A DNA stretch of 28,081 bases. Source: a virus. The position numbers were made by a program, and so were the translations under genes. The notes under the pieces are model-generated. The model did not search any database. It saw only the letters and a program-made list of their open reading frames with translations, and was not told the DNA's origin. The stretch spans positions 1-28,081 of IMG/VR virus record IMGVR_UViG_3300042469_000523; one strand, written 5' to 3'. Below are positions 15,339 to 23,608 of this stretch, piece after piece (the stretch's first letter is position 1; each line of letters begins with the position of its first letter).

Positions 15339-17228
15339 TCAATCTTCGGCGGCTTCCTGCTCGGTCTCGCGGCCAAGGATTTTGAGCATGAAGGCAAACA
15401 CGGTCGCCATCGCCTCGCAGTCGAGAAGGTGGTTCGGTCGTTTTTGGATCCGCGTCCATTGCCAGCGGTCGCCATCCTTGATCCGCATCTCGGATTCCAG
15501 TTGGCTTAGGTAGGCGATTTTCTTTTCGTCGTTATCCGCCTCGGTGAAGGCGTCGGTAGGAACCTCCCATGTTGGACCGCGCGCTGGATCTTGATTGCGC
15601 CGAATCCGAGCCATCGCGTCCTTGATGTTGAGGTTGCTCCAATAAAACATCTGAGCGGTCTTGCCGGCGGCGACATGAATTGACCTCTTGGGCGAGTAAA
15701 ATCTCTCCAATGACTTAACCCGGACGCCGACGCCGAGGCGTTGCTTGAGTCGGTGAGTCCATGTCGCCTTGCGATCGCCCATCAGCGCGACCCATCCATG
15801 CTCGGCACATCTTTGATAGACCTCGTAGCTATTGAAACCGGCATCGACGCCAACCAATGAGGACGAAACGCCGTATTTTTCCTGCTTTTCCTGCAACTCT
15901 TCCCAAGTGTGAGCTGTGCCCCAGTCGATCCGGCGACTGGATCCATCGGGGCTCCATTGGGTGATCAACCACCAAAAGTGATCCATCTGAACATCGACGG
16001 TCATCACGCGCAGCCGCACCGGAGGTTCATCATCCTCATCGGGCAGGCGGATCTTGCCAGCGATGATCGCGCCTTCCTTGCCCCAGAGTAATTCGCCTCT
16101 GGCATACCCGCTATCAGTCGGCTTGATCGAGAAATCCTCGGTGTATTCCGTGAATGGGAGAGCTAGTCGCTTCTGCCAGAAGATTTTCAACTGATCGATG
16201 TCGCCGTACCTTGCTGACGCCTTCGCCCGGAGGTAAATCTCGGCGAGGTTGCCCCATGATCCAGCGCATAACCCGTTCCAGTGAAAACCAACATTCGATT
16301 TAGCCGCTCCGGGATTTTGCACGACATAACGCGCGCCGTTACGAGGGTCGTTCAGCTCTCGGCGTGATCGATCGGCATCTTGAAATCGTTTTCCACACTC
16401 GCAGAACATTTCGGTGGTCTCGCGCACCCTTTCAAAATCCCACCCACCATCATCAAGTTTGGCGTCCTTGCTCCACTCGATGTTCTCCCACCTCCAAGGC
16501 TGCGTCGTCCCGCAACTTGGACAGCGCCAACACCACTCGCGCTGGTCGGTCGATTTGAATTTCCGATCGGTGTCGTCATCGGTCTCGCCGGCCTGCGACA
16601 CGAAGAACCTTTTGCCCAGCCACCCGAAGGCGGTGACCCGCGCCTCGGCCTCGGCCATGTGACCGGATGGCCAGCGCCAGGTCTCATCGCCGATCAACCA
16701 GCGGATCGAACGGCGTTGGAGATTGGTCTTTGAGTGAGCGCCGAGCACCCAGCCGGTCATGCCGTTGAGGAAAGAAACCGAATTTCTTTTCAGCTTGTGA
16801 CGCTCTGCGCCTTGATGGCGCGGCAAAATCTCCCGAACTGGACCGCATTGTTTCCATAGCACTTGCAGACGGTTTTCCATCTGGTCCTTGGCGTCGGCAT
16901 CGGTCTGGTCGAGCCAGAGCATCGGTCCGGGCGCATTGGCCGCGATCCAACACGAACCAAGCTCTGCCGTCATGGTTTTGCCTGCCTGAATCGCCGCGAT
17001 GATCGACACCAGTGATACCGACGGATCGGCCAGCGCCTCCAATGGCTCACGAATCCATGGCGAATTGCCAGATTTGAACCCGCCGGGTACTGGAGAATAC
17101 GGAATCGACTCCACATATTCCTCGCACCACTGCCATGGCGGCCGGCGATCTTGATTAGGCCACCCGTGCAGGAACTTTTCGTCCAGCTCTGCTTTTTCTT
17201 GGGGCGTTGTTGGTGGTGCTTGAATCAT
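15339..17228 (-). CDS. Terminase large subunit, GpA family
   Basis: A 629-residue packaging motor. The ATPase part has a Walker A-like AAIQAGKT at 78-85 and a Walker B-like IRWLIGDET at 175-183 with Asp181-Glu182. A zinc-ribbon-like cysteine cluster (CWRCPSCG near 233-240 and CECG at 276-279) follows, as is usual in GpA terminases. The nuclease part starts with MTVDVQMDHFWW (Asp412), followed by LVGVDAGF (Asp462) and NHLLDCEAMA near 605-615. It cuts concatemeric DNA and pumps it into the prohead. The length is normal for the family. The start overlaps the small terminase gene by 74 bases. GpA-type enzymes usually make cohesive ends, so a cos site may lie nearby. Confidence 0.93.
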   Translation of the reverse strand: MIQAPPTTPQEKAELDEKFLHGWPNQDRRPPWQWCEEYVESIPYSPVPGGFKSGNSPWIREPLEALADPSVSLVSIIAAIQAGKTMTAELGSCWIAANAPGPMLWLDQTDADAKDQMENRLQVLWKQCGPVREILPRHQGAERHKLKRNSVSFLNGMTGWVLGAHSKTNLQRRSIRWLIGDETWRWPSGHMAEAEARVTAFGWLGKRFFVSQAGETDDDTDRKFKSTDQREWCWRCPSCGTTQPWRWENIEWSKDAKLDDGGWDFERVRETTEMFCECGKRFQDADRSRRELNDPRNGARYVVQNPGAAKSNVGFHWNGLCAGSWGNLAEIYLRAKASARYGDIDQLKIFWQKRLALPFTEYTEDFSIKPTDSGYARGELLWGKEGAIIAGKIRLPDEDDEPPVRLRVMTVDVQMDHFWWLITQWSPDGSSRRIDWGTAHTWEELQEKQEKYGVSSSLVGVDAGFNSYEVYQRCAEHGWVALMGDRKATWTHRLKQRLGVGVRVKSLERFYSPKRSIHVAAGKTAQMFYWSNLNIKDAMARIRRNQDPARGPTWEVPTDAFTEADNDEKKIAYLSQLESEMRIKDGDRWQWTRIQKRPNHLLDCEAMATVFAFMLKILGRETEQEAAED

Positions 17229-17850
17229 CAGGATCTTTCTCTTTCGGGTAATCTCCGCGCCTTAATGTGGCCGTGATCTCATCCACGACCTTTACCATTT
17301 CCTTTCGTATGTCTACCGCATCGAGCCCAACCAATAATGGCGGAAGCTCATTCTCTAGCTTGTTGCGGAAAACCGCATGCGCTTGAGCAACATGGTAGGT
17401 CCATCTCTCCCTAACAGCCTCCATGGTGACATAAAATCCCCTCTTCACCGCCACTCGAAGCTCCCGCTCCTCGACCTCTGCCAACAATTTCCTGCCGCGA
17501 AGCTGGGTTTCGTTAAATTCCAATTCGCCGGTATTCCCGCGAAGTCCGCGCGCCTTCACGAATTGCCTCCATGCGATCACATCGTGCGTCCTGTTCGATG
17601 ACTCCTTCGGGCAATCCGGGATTTTTCTCCACTGCCGAATCGTTTCGGTAGTCACACCCAGAATTTCCGCCAACTCAAGCCAGCTCGATGCCTCATGCCT
17701 TGAATCGGCAGACTCCTCACCACCTTGGCTCATCGACTGAAGCAAGGCTCGCTCGCCTCTTGTTAGTTTCTTTCCTGACTTGGCCTTCTTTTCGATCTGG
17801 GCGAAGTCCATTTCCAGTATCTTCTTAGCATTCTCGGGGCTTGGCGGCAT
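17155..17850 (-). CDS. Terminase small subunit, Nu1-like
   Basis: A 231-residue protein directly upstream of and overlapping the large terminase. A charged N-terminus (AQIEKKAKSGKKLTRGERAL) is followed by a helix-turn-helix at about 55-80 (WLELAEILGVTTETIRQWRK) of the kind that recognises the packaging site, then a helical region containing FNETQLRGRKLLAEVEEREL near 110-130, and a basic C-terminus (RKSRAGRKVPARVA). The helical middle probably oligomerises and the tail may bind the large subunit. It is the first gene of the late operon. The GC-rich region upstream is a natural place to look for a late promoter and cos. Confidence 0.8.
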   Translation of the reverse strand: MPPSPENAKKILEMDFAQIEKKAKSGKKLTRGERALLQSMSQGGEESADSRHEASSWLELAEILGVTTETIRQWRKIPDCPKESSNRTHDVIAWRQFVKARGLRGNTGELEFNETQLRGRKLLAEVEERELRVAVKRGFYVTMEAVRERWTYHVAQAHAVFRNKLENELPPLLVGLDAVDIRKEMVKVVDEITATLRRGDYPKEKDPDDSSTTNNAPRKSRAGRKVPARVA

Positions 17851-18193
17851 GCCTAGCCGGCCGCGTCAACTGATCAACCGTGCAAGGTTGAAAACAAAAT
17901 ATGCACAGTTTTACAAGGTGGGTCCCCCGAGCCGCGCCGCATAGGGGCACCGGTCAATAGATTCCTTGGCTTCGCCGGCATCGCCTGGCATTGCCTGCCG
18001 GCGCTCGCCTGGCAGCGCTTGAATGAACCGGCAGCCACCCGGAACCGTGCGACATGCCGGCCGCGCGTGCTTGGCCTGGTGATTGCCGAGCGCCGGCCGC
18101 GGATCCGGCCGCGGGGTGGTCGGGTGGTCATCGCCGGCGCCGGACCGCATGCCAGTAAATCGGCCGCGGGGTGGATCCGCGCGCCCGGTCAAA

Positions 18194-18239
18194 TTAATTT
18201 TAAATTAACTGTTGCAAAGCTTGGCGCCCTTGCTATTTT
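18194..18239 (+). promoter_or_regulatory. Sigma-70-like promoter with AT-rich palindrome
   Basis: TTGCAA at 18212-18217 and TATTTT at 18234-18239 are separated by 16 bases, with a TGC just before the -10 that resembles an extended -10. Upstream lies a perfect odd palindrome, TTAATTT-T-AAATTAA (18194-18208), which ends 3 bases before the -35 and may be an operator or an UP-like element. Transcription would start near 18246, just at the first leader hairpin. Confidence 0.55.
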
Positions 18240-18246
18240 TTGCCTA

Positions 18247-18284
18247 GTCGCATGCAGCGACGCCCTACCCGGTGGGACACCGGG
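18247..18284 (+). ncRNA. Two-hairpin 5' leader, copy A
   Basis: Hairpin 1 is GTCGC-ATGCA-GCGAC (18247-18261). After a 6-base linker, hairpin 2 is CCCGGTG-GGA-CACCGGG (18268-18284). The ATG follows 20 bases later, after an A-rich stretch without an SD. The same arrangement, with different but still paired stem sequences, precedes the plus-strand gene at 20416. The leader may be a cis-regulatory RNA or, as DNA, a protein-binding site. Confidence 0.5.
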
Positions 18285-18304
18285 AAACCGTAGAAAACAA
18301 AAAA

Positions 18305-19081
18305 ATGATACAAGACACATGCACGACGTGGGCCGGCGCTATCGCTGCAGCTCATCGCAAGACAAACAAAAAACCGGGTGGGTACGTTATCCACCGGGGT
18401 ACAGTAAACGGTCAGCGATTCGCTGCCGTTGCGACATTGAAAACCGACAATCGGAAAACAGGGGACATGGTTCAAATTTGGTTTGTCCTCGAGGACATGC
18501 ATCCGGTTGAGGCTGTCGCGCGTGGCATCGATGTGAAAACGATTTGCCGGGGCTGTCCGTTCGCTTCCGGCAATGGCTGCTATGTTAATGTGGGGCAAGC
18601 GCCCCTTGCTGTTTGGCGCGGATTGAATCGCGGGATCTACCCTGAGTTGAATCCGTTTGAATATTCCCGCATATTCGCCGGGCGCAAAGTTAGGTTTGGC
18701 GCGTACGGCAATCCAACCTTGCTACCTATTTCCAAAGTTAAAGCGATCGCGGAAGCTTCAAAGGGTTGGACGGGATATTTTCACGATTGGCGAGAAAATC
18801 CGATGGCTCACGCCTACGCTGCCTATTTTATGGCATCGACAGAAACGGAAGATTCCCGGAAGCTTGCGAATGCGATCGGCTTCCGAACGTTTCACGTTTC
18901 GCCGGATAAGCCGGCCGATGCGATCGAATGTCTAAGTGACGCAAAGGGATTAACATGCGCGCAATGCAAGCTTTGCGCCGGGCTTTCCAAGGGGCGTCAA
19001 CCTTCGGTTTGGATTAATCCGCACGGCTCAAAAAAGAGTCGCGCGATCAGCGCCGCCATGGAAAGGACGGTTTCCCGATGA
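18305..19081 (+). CDS. Cysteine-cluster phage protein of unknown function
   Basis: A 258-residue protein, first of a three-gene plus-strand operon. ATG 18305 is chosen because the in-frame GTG further upstream lies inside the leader hairpin. Two cysteine groups stand out: CRGCPFASGNGCYVNVGQAP near residues 84-103 and CAQCKLCAG near 220-230. Between them are FGAYGNPTLLPISKVKAIAE and WTGYFHDWRENP. From memory, proteins with a Cys-x-x-Cys-Pro, CYVNVGQ and terminal CxxCxLC pattern occur in many phages without an assigned role. The cysteines could bind zinc or an iron-sulfur cluster; this is inference. The stop overlaps the next ATG in ATGA. Confidence 0.7.
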   Translation: MIQDTCTTWAGAIAAAHRKTNKKPGGYVIHRGTVNGQRFAAVATLKTDNRKTGDMVQIWFVLEDMHPVEAVARGIDVKTICRGCPFASGNGCYVNVGQAPLAVWRGLNRGIYPELNPFEYSRIFAGRKVRFGAYGNPTLLPISKVKAIAEASKGWTGYFHDWRENPMAHAYAAYFMASTETEDSRKLANAIGFRTFHVSPDKPADAIECLSDAKGLTCAQCKLCAGLSKGRQPSVWINPHGSKKSRAISAAMERTVSR

Positions 19082-19512
19082 AACCGAGCCCCACCCTGGC
19101 CGGCCGGCTCAGCGACGGGCGCCCTGTATATTACGGAAAAAAGGACCCGTGCGACATGTCCACCCGTGATCTTGAAACATGGGTTACATTGGACCACCCG
19201 AGCGCCGGGCTTTATATCCACCTGGAAATTTTAGGGCTGCCGGATCCATGGGACCGCGGCCGCGTCGGCATGGGCACACCGTTTTTGTCACTGTTGCACA
19301 GGGTGGAATGTTTCCTTGCATTAATCAACCCCGCGACCGTCTACGCGTGGAGAAATGCCGAATTGTTGGATATGCTCGGCGAACCTTTCCCCTTAATAGC
19401 CGAGTGCATGGCGGCCGGCGCCTCGCCGGATGATTTGGAAAAATCCACCCGTGAAAACCTCGCTGATGTATCACCTGAGCATGTCATGGAAAGGGCGGGC
19501 GCCGATGTATGA
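19078..19512 (+). CDS. Hypothetical protein, 144 aa
   Basis: A 144-residue protein of unknown function, coupled to the cysteine-cluster gene by an ATGA overlap. It begins MKPSPTLAGRLSDGRPVYYG, contains LETWVTLDHPSAGLYIHLEI, and has a long probably helical second half (PFLSLLHRVECFLALINPAT, then AWRNAELLDMLGEPFPLIAE). No family is recognised. The sequence around 19243-19265 (GGATCCATGGGACCGCGG) resembles units of the downstream minisatellite, which could be chance or a sign that the repeat arose locally. Confidence 0.6.
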   Translation: MKPSPTLAGRLSDGRPVYYGKKDPCDMSTRDLETWVTLDHPSAGLYIHLEILGLPDPWDRGRVGMGTPFLSLLHRVECFLALINPATVYAWRNAELLDMLGEPFPLIAECMAAGASPDDLEKSTRENLADVSPEHVMERAGADV

Positions 19513-19666
19513 GAAAATCGAAACGGCGCTTGTCATTGCATGCATCGCCGGCGCTGCCGGTGTTTTCCTTGTCGCCGGCCACCTAATCGGCGCCCGGTGG
19601 ACATTAGGACCACCCGACCACGAAACTCGGGCGGCCGCATCGGCGCCCCTAATTTTCGGCGAGTAA
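19505..19666 (+). CDS. Small single-span membrane protein, 53 aa
   Basis: The product begins MYEKIETALVIACIAGAAGV and has one hydrophobic helix at about residues 7-28, followed by a short polar tail. The ATG at 19505 overlaps the stop of the preceding gene by 8 bases. An upstream ATG at 19481 in the same frame (MSWKGRAP) would add 8 residues and cannot be excluded. One short membrane span with an outside tail is compatible with a holin-like, spanin-like or signalling peptide, but no lysis gene lies beside it. A strong terminator follows at once. Confidence 0.5.
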   Translation: MYEKIETALVIACIAGAAGVFLVAGHLIGARWTLGPPDHETRAAASAPLIFGE

Positions 19667-19681
19667 TGAAAAGAAAACCCA

Positions 19682-19713
19682 CCCCGCGCGCGCCATGCGT
19701 GCGGGGTTTTTTT
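19682..19713 (+). terminator. Rho-independent terminator of the first plus-strand operon
   Basis: CCCCGCGCGC pairs with GCGTGCGGGG (one G-U pair) around the loop GCCAT, followed directly by seven T residues. It lies 15 bases after the stop of the small membrane protein and ends the 18305-19666 operon. The minisatellite begins at the very next base. Confidence 0.9.
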
Positions 19714-20080
19714 CCGCGGTCCGTGTGGATCCGCGGTCCGTGTGGATCCGCGGTCCGTGTGGATCCGCGGTCCGTGTGGATCCGCGGTCCGGGGTGGATC
19801 CGTGGCCGTGTGGATCCGCGGTCCGTGTGGATCCGCGGTCCGGGGTGGATCCGCGGTCCGGGTGGATCCGTGGCCGTGTGGATCCGTGGCCGTGTGGATC
19901 CGCGGTCCGGGTGGATCCGTGGCCGTGTGGATCCGCGGTCGTGTGGATCCGCGGCCAGGGTGGATCCGCGGTCGTGTGGATCCGCGGCCAGGGTGGATCC
20001 GCGGCCAGGGTGGATCCATGGCCAGGGTGGATCCGCGGCCGGGTGGATCCATGGCCAGGGTGGATCCGCGGCCGGGGTGG
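19714..20080. repeat. Minisatellite: 21 copies of a 16-18 bp GTGGATCC unit
   Basis: The core GTGGATCC occurs 21 times at a spacing of 16 to 18 bases. The unit is roughly TGTGGATCCGCGGTCCG, with variants GGCC for GGTCC, CATGG for CGCGG and GGGTGG for TGTGG. Variants are clustered: TCCG-type units dominate on the left and GGCCAG-type on the right, as expected from stepwise local duplication. Each unit joins two palindromes, GGATCC and CCGCGG (or CCATGG). Because no stop word occurs and the period is not a fixed multiple of three, every reading frame is open. I do not regard these frames as genes. It may be an iteron-like protein-binding array, a recombination hot spot, or simply expanded DNA. 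Confidence 0.95.
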
Positions 20081-20114
20081 AAATCGGGCGCTTTTGGCCT
20101 GGTCGGTCGGGTTG

Positions 20115-20189
20115 GCCGATTTCCGGCCGCGTGATGAAAAATGCCGATTTCCGGCCGGTGCCACAAAAAACCAATTTCCGCCCCGTGAC
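20115..20189. repeat. GATTTCCGG-type 27-28 bp repeats, left block
   Basis: GCCGATTTCCGGCCG occurs at 20115 and again 28 bases later at 20143. A degenerate copy (CCAATTTCCGCCCCGTG) starts at 20171, 27 bases after the matching position. Each copy is followed by GTG and an A-rich end. Similar copies occur at 22690-22745, past the small-gene cassette. Confidence 0.65.
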
Positions 20190-20208
20190 TATGGCTTATG
20201 TATTCCTG

Positions 20209-20289
20209 CCCCCGCTGCGCTTTTTTGGACGAAAACCCCCGCTGCGCTTTTTTGAGTTAAAACCCCCGCTGCGCTTTTTTGAACCGGAG
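20209..20289. repeat. 27-bp tandem repeat with CGCTTTTTTG core, left block (3 copies)
   Basis: CCCCCGCTGCGCTTTTTTG starts at 20209, 20236 and 20263, an exact 27-base period. The last 8 bases of each unit vary but keep AAAA. Two related copies with the same period lie at 22816 and 22843. The T6 run after GCGC looks terminator-like, but no matching stem is conserved, so the role is open. Confidence 0.8.
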
Positions 20290-20321
20290 AAATAAATTTT
20301 CGGATTATGTGAAAATAAATG

Positions 20322-20349
20322 TTGCCAACTACGAAAAATACTTTATCTT
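20322..20349 (+). promoter_or_regulatory. Sigma-70-like promoter of the second plus-strand operon
   Basis: TTGCCA at 20322-20327 and TATCTT at 20344-20349 are separated by 16 bases, in an AT-rich stretch. The first T of this -35 is 94 bases from the ATG, against 93 bases for the promoter at 18212. A TATAAT at 20398-20403 is a rival -10 box that would give an almost leaderless message, but no -35 stands at the right distance from it. Confidence 0.5.
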
Positions 20350-20356
20350 AAACCCG

Positions 20357-20393
20357 TCGCCAGCAAATGGCGAACCGACCGGGAGGCACCCGG
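20357..20393 (+). ncRNA. Two-hairpin 5' leader, copy B
   Basis: Hairpin 1 is TCGCCA-GCAAA-TGGCGA (20357-20373). After a 5-base linker, hairpin 2 is CCGGG-AGGCA-CCCGG (20379-20393). The ATG follows after 22 bases that end in GTAGAAAA, as in copy A. The gap between the -10 box and hairpin 1 is 7 bases in both copies. The stems differ between the copies but remain complementary, which argues for a conserved structure. Confidence 0.5.
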
Positions 20394-20415
20394 AACCTAT
20401 AATACTAGTAGAAAA

Positions 20416-20832
20416 ATGAAAAATACACAGAAGAAGTCGGCCCAATATTGGGAAGCATATAAAACCCGCGTTCAAGAGTTAGAGGCAGAAGGTCTTTGCA
20501 CTTCGGATGCTCAATCGGTTGCAGATGTTGAGTTCGATGAGAGCTTAAAAAATGTTGATGAGCACACTCCTGGACCATGGGTTGTAGATTTCTGCAATGG
20601 TAAACCATATGTCGTAAACGGCAATTTTTGTGCTGCTCGGGTACATGGCACCGAAAAGACTTTGCTGGCAAACGCCCGCTTGATCGCCGCCGCGCCTGAG
20701 CTGCTCGAAGCCTGCATGGTGGCACTGGCTGCCATCAAATCCGAATACCCGCTCGAGCATGGAAACCCAACGATCGGGCGCGCCTGGGGCACGCTTGAAA
20801 GCGCCATCGCAAAAGCAACCTCTAATATCTAA
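20416..20832 (+). CDS. HTPGPW / NARLIAAAPELL-type phage protein
   Basis: A 138-residue protein. The HTPGPW motif near residue 50, followed by a variable part and NARLIAAAPELLEACMVAL near residues 86-104, marks a family that is very common in phages and has no assigned function. Other features are an N-terminal helix (MKNTQKKSAQYWEAYKTRV) and a C-terminal helix. Translation starts at ATG 20416 after an A-rich leader without an SD. It is the first gene of the plus-strand cassette and follows the two-hairpin leader B. Confidence 0.75.
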   Translation: MKNTQKKSAQYWEAYKTRVQELEAEGLCTSDAQSVADVEFDESLKNVDEHTPGPWVVDFCNGKPYVVNGNFCAARVHGTEKTLLANARLIAAAPELLEACMVALAAIKSEYPLEHGNPTIGRAWGTLESAIAKATSNI

Positions 20833-20853
20833 TCATCCAAACCAACTGAAAAT

Positions 20854-21438
20854 ATGAGACTTAATAAATATAGCAAAAAAACAGTATCCTGCTTTATCCG
20901 ATTCGACGGGTGCGAGCCCGAATGCGTCGATAGAGAGGAGCAACGCGCAGCCCTCCACGCTGCCGTCATCTGTGGCGAACCATGCACTATCTGGGATTCA
21001 AGCGACATTCAGCCAAGCCGTTGCCGCTACGAACCCGGCAACGACATGAGTCGTAATGTTCTTAAATGCCTTGCCAAAGATGGCGTTTCGCCACGCGCAA
21101 AAAACCTCGCCCAACAGCAGGAAACCTGCCGATTGGACGCGCAGGCGGATGAACTCCCAATGGAATTCAAGATTGAGAAAAACTGGGACAGTGCCCCGTT
21201 CGTTTCCCTTGACGGGGTGGTCGAGATATACCCCGAGTTCGTCGGGGTGGCTTTTGGGCGCTCCCCCCGCTTCTCTTATTCGGTAATATGCGCCGGCACC
21301 GGCGCCTTTCTCTCCGAGTACCGCACCGCAAATGAAGCTCTGGTCGCGGCAGCGTTGGAGGCTTTTGCCTTCCGAGCTAGAACCAGGTTTGGTCTAATCC
21401 CAAATTGGTCCGAAGTTCCCGAAATGGCAGGATTTTAA
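20854..21438 (+). CDS. Hypothetical protein, 194 aa
   Basis: A 194-residue protein of unknown function. The first half has several cysteines (VSCFIRFDGCEPECVDREEQ), followed by a charged linker and a second half that looks like a small alpha/beta domain (APFVSLDGVVEIYPEFVGVA, FSYSVICAGTGAFLSEYRTA, then a helix). The ATG at 20854 has the leader CCAACTGAAAAT, again CA-rich and SD-less. It lies 21 bases after the preceding stop, probably in one transcript with it. Confidence 0.55.
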   Translation: MRLNKYSKKTVSCFIRFDGCEPECVDREEQRAALHAAVICGEPCTIWDSSDIQPSRCRYEPGNDMSRNVLKCLAKDGVSPRAKNLAQQQETCRLDAQADELPMEFKIEKNWDSAPFVSLDGVVEIYPEFVGVAFGRSPRFSYSVICAGTGAFLSEYRTANEALVAAALEAFAFRARTRFGLIPNWSEVPEMAGF

Positions 21439-21473
21439 ATGAACCCAACCCCAACAAATAGAAAATCGAAATC

Positions 21474-21755
21474 ATGCAGAAGAACATCATAACTAAAACA
21501 AAAGCCTGTAAACAAGCAGCCTCAGAAATATCGGAATTGTACAGGTTTGGGGGGCAGTGGAGATACTCCTATTACGACCACTCCTGCAAGGCTAACAGGG
21601 AGTCTATTCCAAGAGACTACTACTCCGCCCAGTTCTCACGCCGGTGCGCTCTCATAAGCCGTGCGATGGAATTGCTCCACCCAGACCGCGACGATAGTCA
21701 CGCATATGAGCCTGGCGATTTTTCAGGCGGCGCATGGAAGTCGTATGTCCAATAA
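21474..21755 (+). CDS. Hypothetical protein, 93 aa
   Basis: A 93-residue basic, tyrosine-rich protein beginning MQKNIITKTKACKQAASEIS, with WRYSYYDHSCKANRESIPRD and a C-terminal PDRDDSHAYEPGDFSGG. No domain is recognised. The 35-base gap before it is CA-rich and has no SD. Its codon use and leader type match the neighbouring genes, so it is likely a true member of this cassette. Confidence 0.5.
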   Translation: MQKNIITKTKACKQAASEISELYRFGGQWRYSYYDHSCKANRESIPRDYYSAQFSRRCALISRAMELLHPDRDDSHAYEPGDFSGGAWKSYVQ

Positions 21756-21779
21756 ACAACCAACCAACCAACCAAAAAA

Positions 21780-22064
21780 ATGACATACGAAATCGAACAA
21801 ATTGCTAATTTTGAAAAATGCAATGCAGGGATTCCAATTTCCCTTCTTCGCGCCGCTGCGGTCAGTGTTATGCGGGACGAATGGCAGCATGACCTCGCAC
21901 TGGGGGAAGCTATCCATGAGGAAACACTAGACATGTCCGCTGCCGTTTTGTCGGTAAACCAAACCCTTGTGGACGCAGGTTGTGTTTCCCGCGTGGATGC
22001 GGATGATGTTGCGGAGGGTCTCGCTCAATGGGTTGAGTCCGAAAGCATGAAACTAAATATGTGA
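21780..22064 (+). CDS. Hypothetical protein, 94 aa
   Basis: A 94-residue, acidic, mostly helical protein (MTYEIEQIANFEKCNAGIPI, then a run of helices ending VAEGLAQWVESESMKLNM). No family is recognised. Upstream lies a run of four CAAC-type repeats (ACAACCAACCAACCAACC) and AAAAAA, directly before the ATG. This is an extreme case of the CA-rich leaders seen in the cassette. Confidence 0.5.
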   Translation: MTYEIEQIANFEKCNAGIPISLLRAAAVSVMRDEWQHDLALGEAIHEETLDMSAAVLSVNQTLVDAGCVSRVDADDVAEGLAQWVESESMKLNM

Positions 22065-22099
22065 TCCGGCTTTAATTTGCCTGGAAACAACACCTAACC

Positions 22100-22128
22100 A
22101 GCGGGGCCGGGCAGCCGGTCCCGCTTTA
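22100..22128 (+). terminator. Strong GC hairpin between two cassette genes
   Basis: AGCGGGGCCGG pairs with CCGGTCCCGCT over 11 bp (one G-U pair) with the loop GCAG, followed by only three T residues. It lies 35 bases after one stop and 11 bases before the ATG at 22137. It could be a weak terminator or attenuator, or a 5' structure controlling the next gene. Confidence 0.5.
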
Positions 22129-22136
22129 GTGCTATT

Positions 22137-22361
22137 ATGAACACGCAAGAAAATGAAGAAGAACCGCAATCAATTATCGTCATACGGCTCCCCAGGTGGC
22201 GCAAAGGACAGTACATCGGCGCCTCACGCCTCGAGGGGAAAACGCTTGTCGGGTGGGTCCTCGAACAGTGCGACAAAGGGCTCGCCGACTCCGGTTGGTC
22301 GCCCCCGAACAAGCCACGAGACGAAGGAGAAACTTCGGGTGGTGGCTTTGGCTCGTATTAG
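22137..22361 (+). CDS. Ribbon-helix-helix-like small protein, 74 aa
   Basis: The segment SIIVIRLPRWRKGQYIGASR, then a turn and TLVGWVLEQCDKGL, has the pattern of a ribbon-helix-helix DNA-binding fold: a short strand, a helix, a Gly-Lys turn and a second helix. Such proteins act as dimeric repressors or antitoxins. The C-terminal 20 residues are Gly-, Pro- and Ser-rich, and this part overlaps the next gene in another frame. There is no SD and a GC hairpin lies just before the start. The assignment comes from the visual pattern only. Confidence 0.5.
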   Translation: MNTQENEEEPQSIIVIRLPRWRKGQYIGASRLEGKTLVGWVLEQCDKGLADSGWSPPNKPRDEGETSGGGFGSY

Positions 22362-22587
22362 TCGCGGCGAGTGGTGCGCAAAAAAACTTTGGACCCCTAC
22401 CGAGGACGCTGCACTAGGTACCGCGCCCGACGGTGAGATAGGCACCTTGCTCGGCAGGCCGCGGGGCTCGGTGGTAGCCCGGCGCCACAAGCTCGGGATC
22501 CCTGCCTTTCGATCGCCTGGCCGATCGAAAGGGCAGTGCCTGCCCTGGGCCGAGCAAAAAAAAGGTAAACGAAAACCGAAACTATGA
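22153..22587 (+). CDS. SANT/Myb-like DNA-binding protein with NUMOD3-like motif, start uncertain
   Basis: The frame gives 144 residues. Residues 80-117 (KLWTPTEDAALGTAPDGEIG, then LLGRPRGSVVARRHKLGIP) fit the SANT/Myb-like helical family with Trp, Glu-Asp, a Leu-Gly turn and an RR..LGIP end. Just before, GRPRTSHETKEKL (49-61) resembles the NUMOD3 motif often attached to homing endonucleases. No HNH or GIY-YIG part is present, so it may be a stand-alone regulator or an endonuclease remnant. The first 45 residues overlap the upstream gene in another frame and look like its shadow. GTG 22339, with AAGGAG 9 bases upstream, is a good alternative start (82 residues) but would lose the NUMOD3-like motif. 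Confidence 0.65.
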   Translation: MKKNRNQLSSYGSPGGAKDSTSAPHASRGKRLSGGSSNSATKGSPTPVGRPRTSHETKEKLRVVALARISRGEWCAKKLWTPTEDAALGTAPDGEIGTLLGRPRGSVVARRHKLGIPAFRSPGRSKGQCLPWAEQKKGKRKPKL

Positions 22588-22689
22588 AATAGCCATATCC
22601 ACCCACCAACCTCAAACCGGGCCGGGCTTGTCGCAATGACATAACCGGCCGCCGGCCGCGCGTGCACCCATACGCGGCCGATATGGAAA

Positions 22690-22745
22690 TGCGGGCATTT
22701 TCGGCCGGTCACACAAATCCGGCCGATTTCCGCCCGTGGCTCAAA
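22690..22745. repeat. GATTTCCG-type repeats, right block
   Basis: Two units of about 28 bases: GCATTTTCGGCCGGTCACAC and the following CCGGCCGATTTCCGCCCGTG, each ending in CAAAT. They match the left block at 20115-20189 in word order (GATTTCCGGCCGGTG, then an A-rich end). Confidence 0.55.
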
Positions 22746-22815
22746 TCCATCGGTTTTTGGTTGGTCCCCACACAATTTCTATTTTGGTTCGGTGGCATGG
22801 AAATTAGATTTCCGA

Positions 22816-22861
22816 CCCCCAATGCGCTTTTTTGGGCAAAATACCCCATTGCGCTTTTTTG
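22816..22861. repeat. 27-bp repeat with CGCTTTTTTG core, right block (2 copies)
   Basis: CCCCCAATGCGCTTTTTTG starts at 22816, and a second unit (CCCCATTGCGCTTTTTTG) ends exactly 27 bases later. The period, the TGCGCTTTTTTG core and the C-run match the three copies at 20209-20289. The block ends 12 bases from the 3' end of the replication operon. Confidence 0.75.
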
Positions 22862-22873
22862 AGCTGATTTGGC

Positions 22874-23608
22874 TTACTGCTGATACTGCTCGTAAATTCC
22901 TTTGATGTCTTCGCGGAACTCGTCGGCGATCACAAAGTTTTTGCTCGCGAGGATTCTCGCGCCCACATAGGCGTGAAACTCCACAACCGGCAGCAGGTCT
23001 TTGTGTAGCGAGTAGAGCATCTCTTCATCGACCTCATCGAACCATCCAGCGTCTTCGAGGGAGCGGCGGAACACGCAGAGCCGGTTCACATGCGGAATGG
23101 CGTTGTCGATGCCCCCGCCAGTCGGCTTCTCCATGTCCTCCTTGGTAGCCACGCGGCCGAGCTTGATGGACTTGCGCAGCATGTCACCGCTCATCTCCTT
23201 CTTGGCCGCCGTCTCCAGCCACATCGATTGGTCGTCGGGGTTTTTGAGTGATGCGACTGCCCGGTGATGGTCAAACGAGAGGCGCTCTTTACGGATGCTG
23301 AGTGGCACATTCTTGGCGACGAGAGCGACACGCATGAGCGTGCTCACCTCCAACCTCGTGAGGTTGCTGGCGCGAACATAGTCGAATGATCCCGTGGTGG
23401 ATTTCACCCAGTTGATGGCATCACCGATGATCCATGTGGATGATTCCCGCATCTTGGCGGCTTTGACGAGGATGTCCTCGATCTCGACCATATCGGGCGC
23501 CTCATCACCGAAGACCAGTCCGGTCGGAGTTGCGGTGATGCGCGGTGTTTCAAATCCCGGCAGTGATGGATTGCTGCGGGCGACTTCGGTGATGATTTCA
23601 GTGTCCAT
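22874..23608 (-). CDS. ParB/KorB-like DNA-binding phage protein
   Basis: A 244-residue protein, last gene of the early operon. The central segment (STWIIGDAINWVKSTTGSFD near 57-76, then LTRLEVSTLMRVALVAKNVP, ERLSFDHHRAVASL at 108-121, and SGDMLRKSIKLG at 140-151) has the pattern of a phage and plasmid family with ParB-like helix-turn-helix features, where a LSF.HH.AVA motif is followed by a W..A....S...LR helix. Members are thought to bind DNA in replication, partition or regulation; the exact role is unknown. It overlaps the upstream HTH gene by 11 bases. The C-terminal third is not recognised. Confidence 0.5.
   Translation of the reverse strand: MDTEIITEVARSNPSLPGFETPRITATPTGLVFGDEAPDMVEIEDILVKAAKMRESSTWIIGDAINWVKSTTGSFDYVRASNLTRLEVSTLMRVALVAKNVPLSIRKERLSFDHHRAVASLKNPDDQSMWLETAAKKEMSGDMLRKSIKLGRVATKEDMEKPTGGGIDNAIPHVNRLCVFRRSLEDAGWFDEVDEEMLYSLHKDLLPVVEFHAYVGARILASKNFVIADEFREDIKGIYEQYQQ

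Follow-up and report, generated by a model that had tools for sequence, protein, structure and literature searches.

Two related promoter-plus-hairpin leaders precede plus-strand operons in a tailed phage of Verrucomicrobia

Two plus-strand operons of a tailed phage begin with leaders of one architecture, in which promoter-like boxes are followed at matched distances by two small hairpins and an open stretch that ends at the start codon. The two are probably divergent copies of one leader, and the element is real, modest in its features and restricted to one lineage. A sequence-only reading had proposed a conserved riboregulator; judged by the related sequences, that proposal exceeds what they show. 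The function favoured here, tentatively and at a little short of an even chance, is that of a 5′-terminal stem-loop leader that would stabilise the mRNA 5′ end, with the second hairpin reinforcing the first.

The window, that is the whole stretch of DNA that was analysed, is an entire IMG/VR record, 28,081 bases long. It encodes a terminase large subunit and a portal of tailed-phage type, and a search of the phage collection with the window returned no DNA match. The hosts of the virus are Verrucomicrobia bacteria; in a search of the genome collection, two Verrucomicrobia genomes were found to hold the closest relatives of the window terminase. The minus strand carries the packaging and structural genes, and the two plus-strand operons sit between a probable terminase small subunit gene (17155-17850, so assigned by its position just upstream of the terminase) and a ParB-like gene (22874-23608). 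Operon 1 opens with a gene of the phrog_2554 family (18305-19081, function unknown), followed within 19078-19666 by an ORF at 19078-19512 and then a small one that ends at 19666, both of which are retained in L086, L096 and L097. It closes with a strong intrinsic terminator (19681-19713; 12 pairs, 9 of them G-C, then TTTTTT) that is retained in L086. The first gene of operon 2 (20416-20832) belongs to the phrog_1273 family, also of unknown function. In sister phages with terminases about 90% identical, the small-subunit and ParB-like genes lie close together and the plus-strand cassette (window 17900-22800) is missing. The phrog_2554 gene and the 20416 gene of the cassette are found in the same order in L228 and L230, where a homologue of the window terminase was looked for and not found.

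In leader 1 the promoter-like boxes (18212-18239, plus strand) consist of TTGCAA (18212-18217) and, after 16 nt, TATTTT (18234-18239). The start of hairpin 1 (18247-18261, GTCGC-ATGCA-GCGAC) is 8 nt beyond the -10 box, a 6-nt linker leads to hairpin 2 (18268-18284, CCCGGTG-GGA-CACCGGG), and 20 nt of unstructured A-rich sequence (18285-18304; AAACC, GTAGAAAA) reach to the ATG at 18305, which is preceded by no Shine-Dalgarno sequence. Leader 2, on the same strand, has TTGCCA (20322-20327) and TATCTT (20344-20349), likewise 16 nt apart (20322-20349 overall), hairpin 1 with its start again 8 nt beyond the -10 box (20357-20373, TCGCCA-GCAAA-TGGCGA), a 5-nt linker, hairpin 2 (20379-20393, CCGGG-AGGCA-CCCGG) and 22 unstructured nt (20394-20415) that end in GTAGAAAA before the ATG at 20416. 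The -10 box and hairpin 1 are separated by 7 nt in each leader, and the distance from the -35 box to the ATG is 93 in leader 1 and 94 in leader 2; the boxes, hairpins and spacings first read at 18212-18304 and 20322-20415 are confirmed to within a base. The minimum-energy RNA fold comprises both hairpins in each leader, with two extra weak outer pairs in leader 2, and the fold z-scores (about -2.1 to -2.6) lie moderately beyond chance. The match of the boxes to the sigma-70 consensus is weak (8 of 12 positions in leader 1, 9 of 12 in leader 2), and a promoter scan returned 1 site versus 3.3 in shuffles; because the boxes alone score poorly, the grounds for calling them promoters are the geometry common to both leaders and their conservation in relatives. 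The -35 box of leader 1, TTGCAA, is a palindrome, and on the minus strand it is followed by TTAATTT..AATTAATTT (18190-18217); this box may therefore also serve a divergent promoter that faces the gene for the terminase small subunit.

Several familiar roles for leader hairpins were considered and set aside. Sequestration of the start codon was rejected because the AUG stands outside all hairpins, 20-22 nt downstream, and is thus unmasked. Hairpin 2 is not an intrinsic terminator, since it is followed by AAACC or AACC without a T run (a U-tract in the RNA), and it was missed by a terminator scan. Short ORFs that cross the hairpins (MQRRPTRWDTGKP and MANRPGGTRNL, each closed by a stop codon) raise the possibility of leader-peptide attenuation, which is unlikely because the ATG of the leader 1 ORF is lost in three of five variants. 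Riboswitch function found no support either: a scan of the window against Rfam gave no match at the gathering threshold and, with E up to 10 allowed, nothing above chance level, in agreement with the first impression that no known riboswitch class is present, and nothing points to ligand sensing.

The kinship of the leaders is visible in their alignment score, which was equalled by 20 of 5000 dinucleotide-shuffle pairs. With the leaders aligned by hand, using padding, for comparison of the stems, TCGC and GCGA of hairpin 1 are common to both, and the core of hairpin 2 aligns as a gap-free 15-mer (CCGGTGGGACACCGG versus CCGGGAGGCACCCGG), a register in which CCGG/CCGG is kept and one pair is swapped from T-A to G-C. 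Ten pairs are common to the leaders: seven are invariant, one is swapped on both sides and two depart in some sequences. Among eight distinct leaders there is one compensatory base pair. It had been claimed that the stem sequences differ and yet pairing is kept; this holds for the T-A/G-C swap, but the stems are otherwise largely alike (TCGC/GCGA, CCGG/CCGG), and the strong form of the claim shrinks because it comes down to one real pair swap plus differences in stem and loop length. The case shows the limits of reading covariation by eye from two sequences.

Related genomes do contain further copies: nine related IMG/VR contigs have leader 1, and four of the nine have leader 2 as well. Across five distinct versions of leader 1, stems vary at 0 of 24 positions and unpaired sequence at 8 of 34 (p 0.009); when both leaders are pooled, the counts are 1 of 46 and 14 of 78 (p 0.006). 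The TTGCAA and TATTTT hexamers are identical in the relatives of leader 1, with variation in the spacer between them. Both arms of hairpin 1 are invariant in the five variants, and its loop differs at 3 of 5 positions; the arms of hairpin 2 are equally invariant, with one loop base differing. In leader 2 the arms of hairpin 2 are unchanged and its loop carries a C to A change in L118, and the third pair of hairpin 1 goes from G-C to a broken A-C in L095 and L118, both of which gain an outer G-C pair. Unchanged stems can result from the close kinship of the sequences alone. A reading built on this, in which GC-rich leaders of a GC-rich phage fold by chance after neutral duplication and are conserved only by kinship, agrees with fold z-scores of only about -2, with the single compensatory pair and with the lack of copies outside the group. 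It is nevertheless quite improbable in view of the bias toward conserved stems over loops in the pooled leaders, the rarity of such leader similarity among the shuffle pairs, the matched spacing from -35 box to ATG and the presence of hairpins in the leaders of more distant phages.

Searches beyond the related contigs define the reach of the element. A degenerate pattern fitting both leaders, applied to IMG/VR, returned the same phage group together with matches that lack promoter or leader context; its 6 matches among 286 genomes from the Verrucomicrobia class to which L143 belongs, versus 2 for a reversed control, are near control level. Covariance model R1 produced five weak matches in 141 genomes of that class, all overlapped by long open frames and judged to be chance; among the phage loci it recovered the known copies and, in addition, hairpin 1 of L010 only. 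The covariance-model search of phage and Verrucomicrobia genomes that had been suggested as a check thus brought up no copy beyond the phage group. A promoter-plus-GTTGCCGGCAA pattern run on IMG/VR found leader context in L009 and L012 only, and a literature search found no phage riboregulator described for Verrucomicrobia. Because the pattern and covariance searches found none elsewhere, the two-hairpin form is taken to be confined to one small group of near-identical phages. Conservation of the element is therefore upheld in part: the leaders are related, their stems resist change and leader 1 is kept across a gene swap, but all this applies to one small group only. A riboregulator with wide conservation is not borne out, covariation being minimal (one pair) and a leader 2 pair being broken in two relatives.

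The gene swap concerns L093, L095, L096 and L097, in which leader 1 precedes GP88 (PF17338, phrog_1617) instead of the phrog_2554 gene. A comparison of the GP88 and phrog_2554 proteins showed no significant similarity, and leader 1 is about 91-93% identical in contigs with the unrelated gene behind it. Since it is kept while the gene behind it changes, leader 1 appears to be a separable module; it could also be mere flanking homology used in recombination. If confirmed, it would represent a promoter-leader unit that is portable and that phages retain through exchanges of the gene behind it. Other GP88 phages, L279 (at about 1260) and L287 (at about 910), have a promoter-proximal hairpin followed by AGGAGG and ATG, and their stems differ with pairing kept (TTCGGTG/CACCGGA versus TTCGGGG/CCTCGGA).

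Persistence across the gene exchange, the gap-free alignment of the hairpin 2 15-mers and the same two-hairpin arrangement on two operons of one phage would also suit an RNA operator, in which a phage or host RNA-binding protein on the paired hairpins represses or activates translation or decay and the two operons form a small regulon. RNA-binding operator proteins usually read hairpin loops, and the loops here vary freely; the start codon lies clear of the hairpins, the analysis identified no RNA-binding protein, and this reading is considered unlikely. Control of both operons together by the element, as had been supposed, receives no backing, in that nothing points to coordinated control. 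A precedent is T4 gene 43, where a hairpin ahead of the start codon serves as an operator to which the gene's own product binds (PMC3014915). The present leaders likewise place a hairpin upstream of a phage-gene start codon, and differ from the T4 operator in having no conserved loop sequence, no overlap with the ribosome site and no known binding protein.

More distant phages bear on whether the element acts as RNA or as DNA. The phrog_2554 gene is present at 76-86% identity in L009, L010, L011 and L012, each of which has one hairpin in the leader, the second being absent. The hairpin is TGTTGC...GCGACA in L009, TGTCGC-ACGAAACAA-GCGACA in L010 (where it precedes an extra first gene and the promoter is ambiguous), TGTTGCCG-GTGA-CGGTGGCA in L011 and TGTTGCCG-GCAA-CGGTGGCA in L012, the last two with three G-U pairs in the stem. 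Read by eye, a plausible -10 box precedes the hairpin by about 6 nt in L009, L011 and L012, so that in three of the four distant phages a hairpin lies near the predicted transcription start. The phage of L010 also has a homologue of the 20416 gene (40% identical), and no promoter-plus-two-hairpin leader was found for it. Hairpin starts after promoter-like sites in the phage loci numbered ten at offsets 3-9 and none at 10-16 or 17-23; this count is supportive only, because the ten include near-identical copies, as well as one GC-rich reverse-strand site. For a host control, two 400-kb stretches were scanned with a strict promoter pattern, and the 0 and 11 sites obtained are too few for a judgement.

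In both leaders hairpin 1 sits at the expected start site and is almost a perfect palindrome, and GTCGC-N-GCGAC occurs again in L010, as would be anticipated if this sequence were a repressor or activator site on DNA and the hairpins only reflected its palindromic symmetry. Such a DNA operator is distinctly unlikely: GTCGC and its partner arm lie 5, 9 and 9 bases apart, which is unusual for one DNA-binding dimer, G-U pairs hold the L011 and L012 stem and break DNA symmetry, and hairpin 2 would need a separate reason. The G-U pairs and the change from one GNRA loop to another between L011 and L012 favour RNA over a DNA palindrome. GTCGC-N-GCGAC as a widespread operator was also rejected, as most of its occurrences look coding.

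The stabilising 5′-terminal stem-loop is preferred because placement of hairpin 1 by the expected transcription start is a hallmark of such structures. Transcription would start within a few bases of the stable hairpin 1, just before it, and the hairpins, acting as RNA, would influence stability: the 5′-terminal hairpin would block access to the mRNA 5′ end for decay enzymes that require a single-stranded end, as in ompA/papA-type leaders, the second hairpin would back up the first, and the open A-rich stretch would leave the SD-less start codon accessible. The position of hairpin 1, 8 nt past the -10 box and thus close to the predicted transcription start, speaks for this mechanism, as do the resistance of the stems to change, the retention of leader 1 across the gene exchange and the leader hairpins of the more distant phages; the weak promoter matches, the single compensatory pair, the broken A-C pair and the lack of a second hairpin in L009-L012 count against it. 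The reference list of PMC3997798 includes, as numbers 92-95, work on the 5′-terminal stabilising stem-loops of ompA and papA, and the same source reports that Bacillus RppH requires at least 2 unpaired 5′ nucleotides (PMC3997798). The leaders resemble those of ompA, papA and Bacillus aprE in having a stem-loop, predicted in the present case, a few bases from the 5′ end of an otherwise open leader; unlike these, they have a second hairpin close behind, lack a Shine-Dalgarno sequence and precede phage genes of unknown function. If confirmed, they would exemplify structured mRNA leaders among the phages that infect Verrucomicrobia, a phylum for which little phage molecular biology exists.

Paired stem-loops behind a promoter also recall the two put RNAs of bacteriophage HK022, each of about 70 nt with two stem-loops, similar to one another in sequence and located downstream of early promoters; in putL, which follows PL closely, pairing begins at A3, and long stems, non-canonical pairs and a triplex are present (PMC9378689). 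By analogy, a two-stem leader would bind the elongating RNA polymerase so that pauses and terminators are ignored. The general layout is the same, with two related copies per phage, two stem-loops per copy and promoters upstream, but the stems here are of 5-7 bp and extend over about 38 nt, shorter and simpler than put RNA as described, and the host phylum is different. There would be little to read through, because the operons are short, the terminator that closes operon 1 is strong and conserved, and operon 2 is served by a separate promoter; put-like antitermination is thus very unlikely. That the paired hairpins modify the host RNA polymerase as a put-like, protein-free RNA, or serve the phage as a dedicated RNA operator, is highly doubtful.

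The window also contains repeats. At 19713-20071 a 17-base unit (TCCGCGGTCCGTGTGGA) recurs in tandem about 21 times, with the 6-base palindromes GGATCC and CCGCGG abundant; this array differs in L086 and L097, and L228 has at the equivalent place a different array, of units of about 17 bases with CTGCAG. CCCC..TGCGCTTTTTTG repeats end both plus-strand operons, at 20209-20284 (27-base period, 2.8 copies) and at about 22800-22860, and are possibly terminators.
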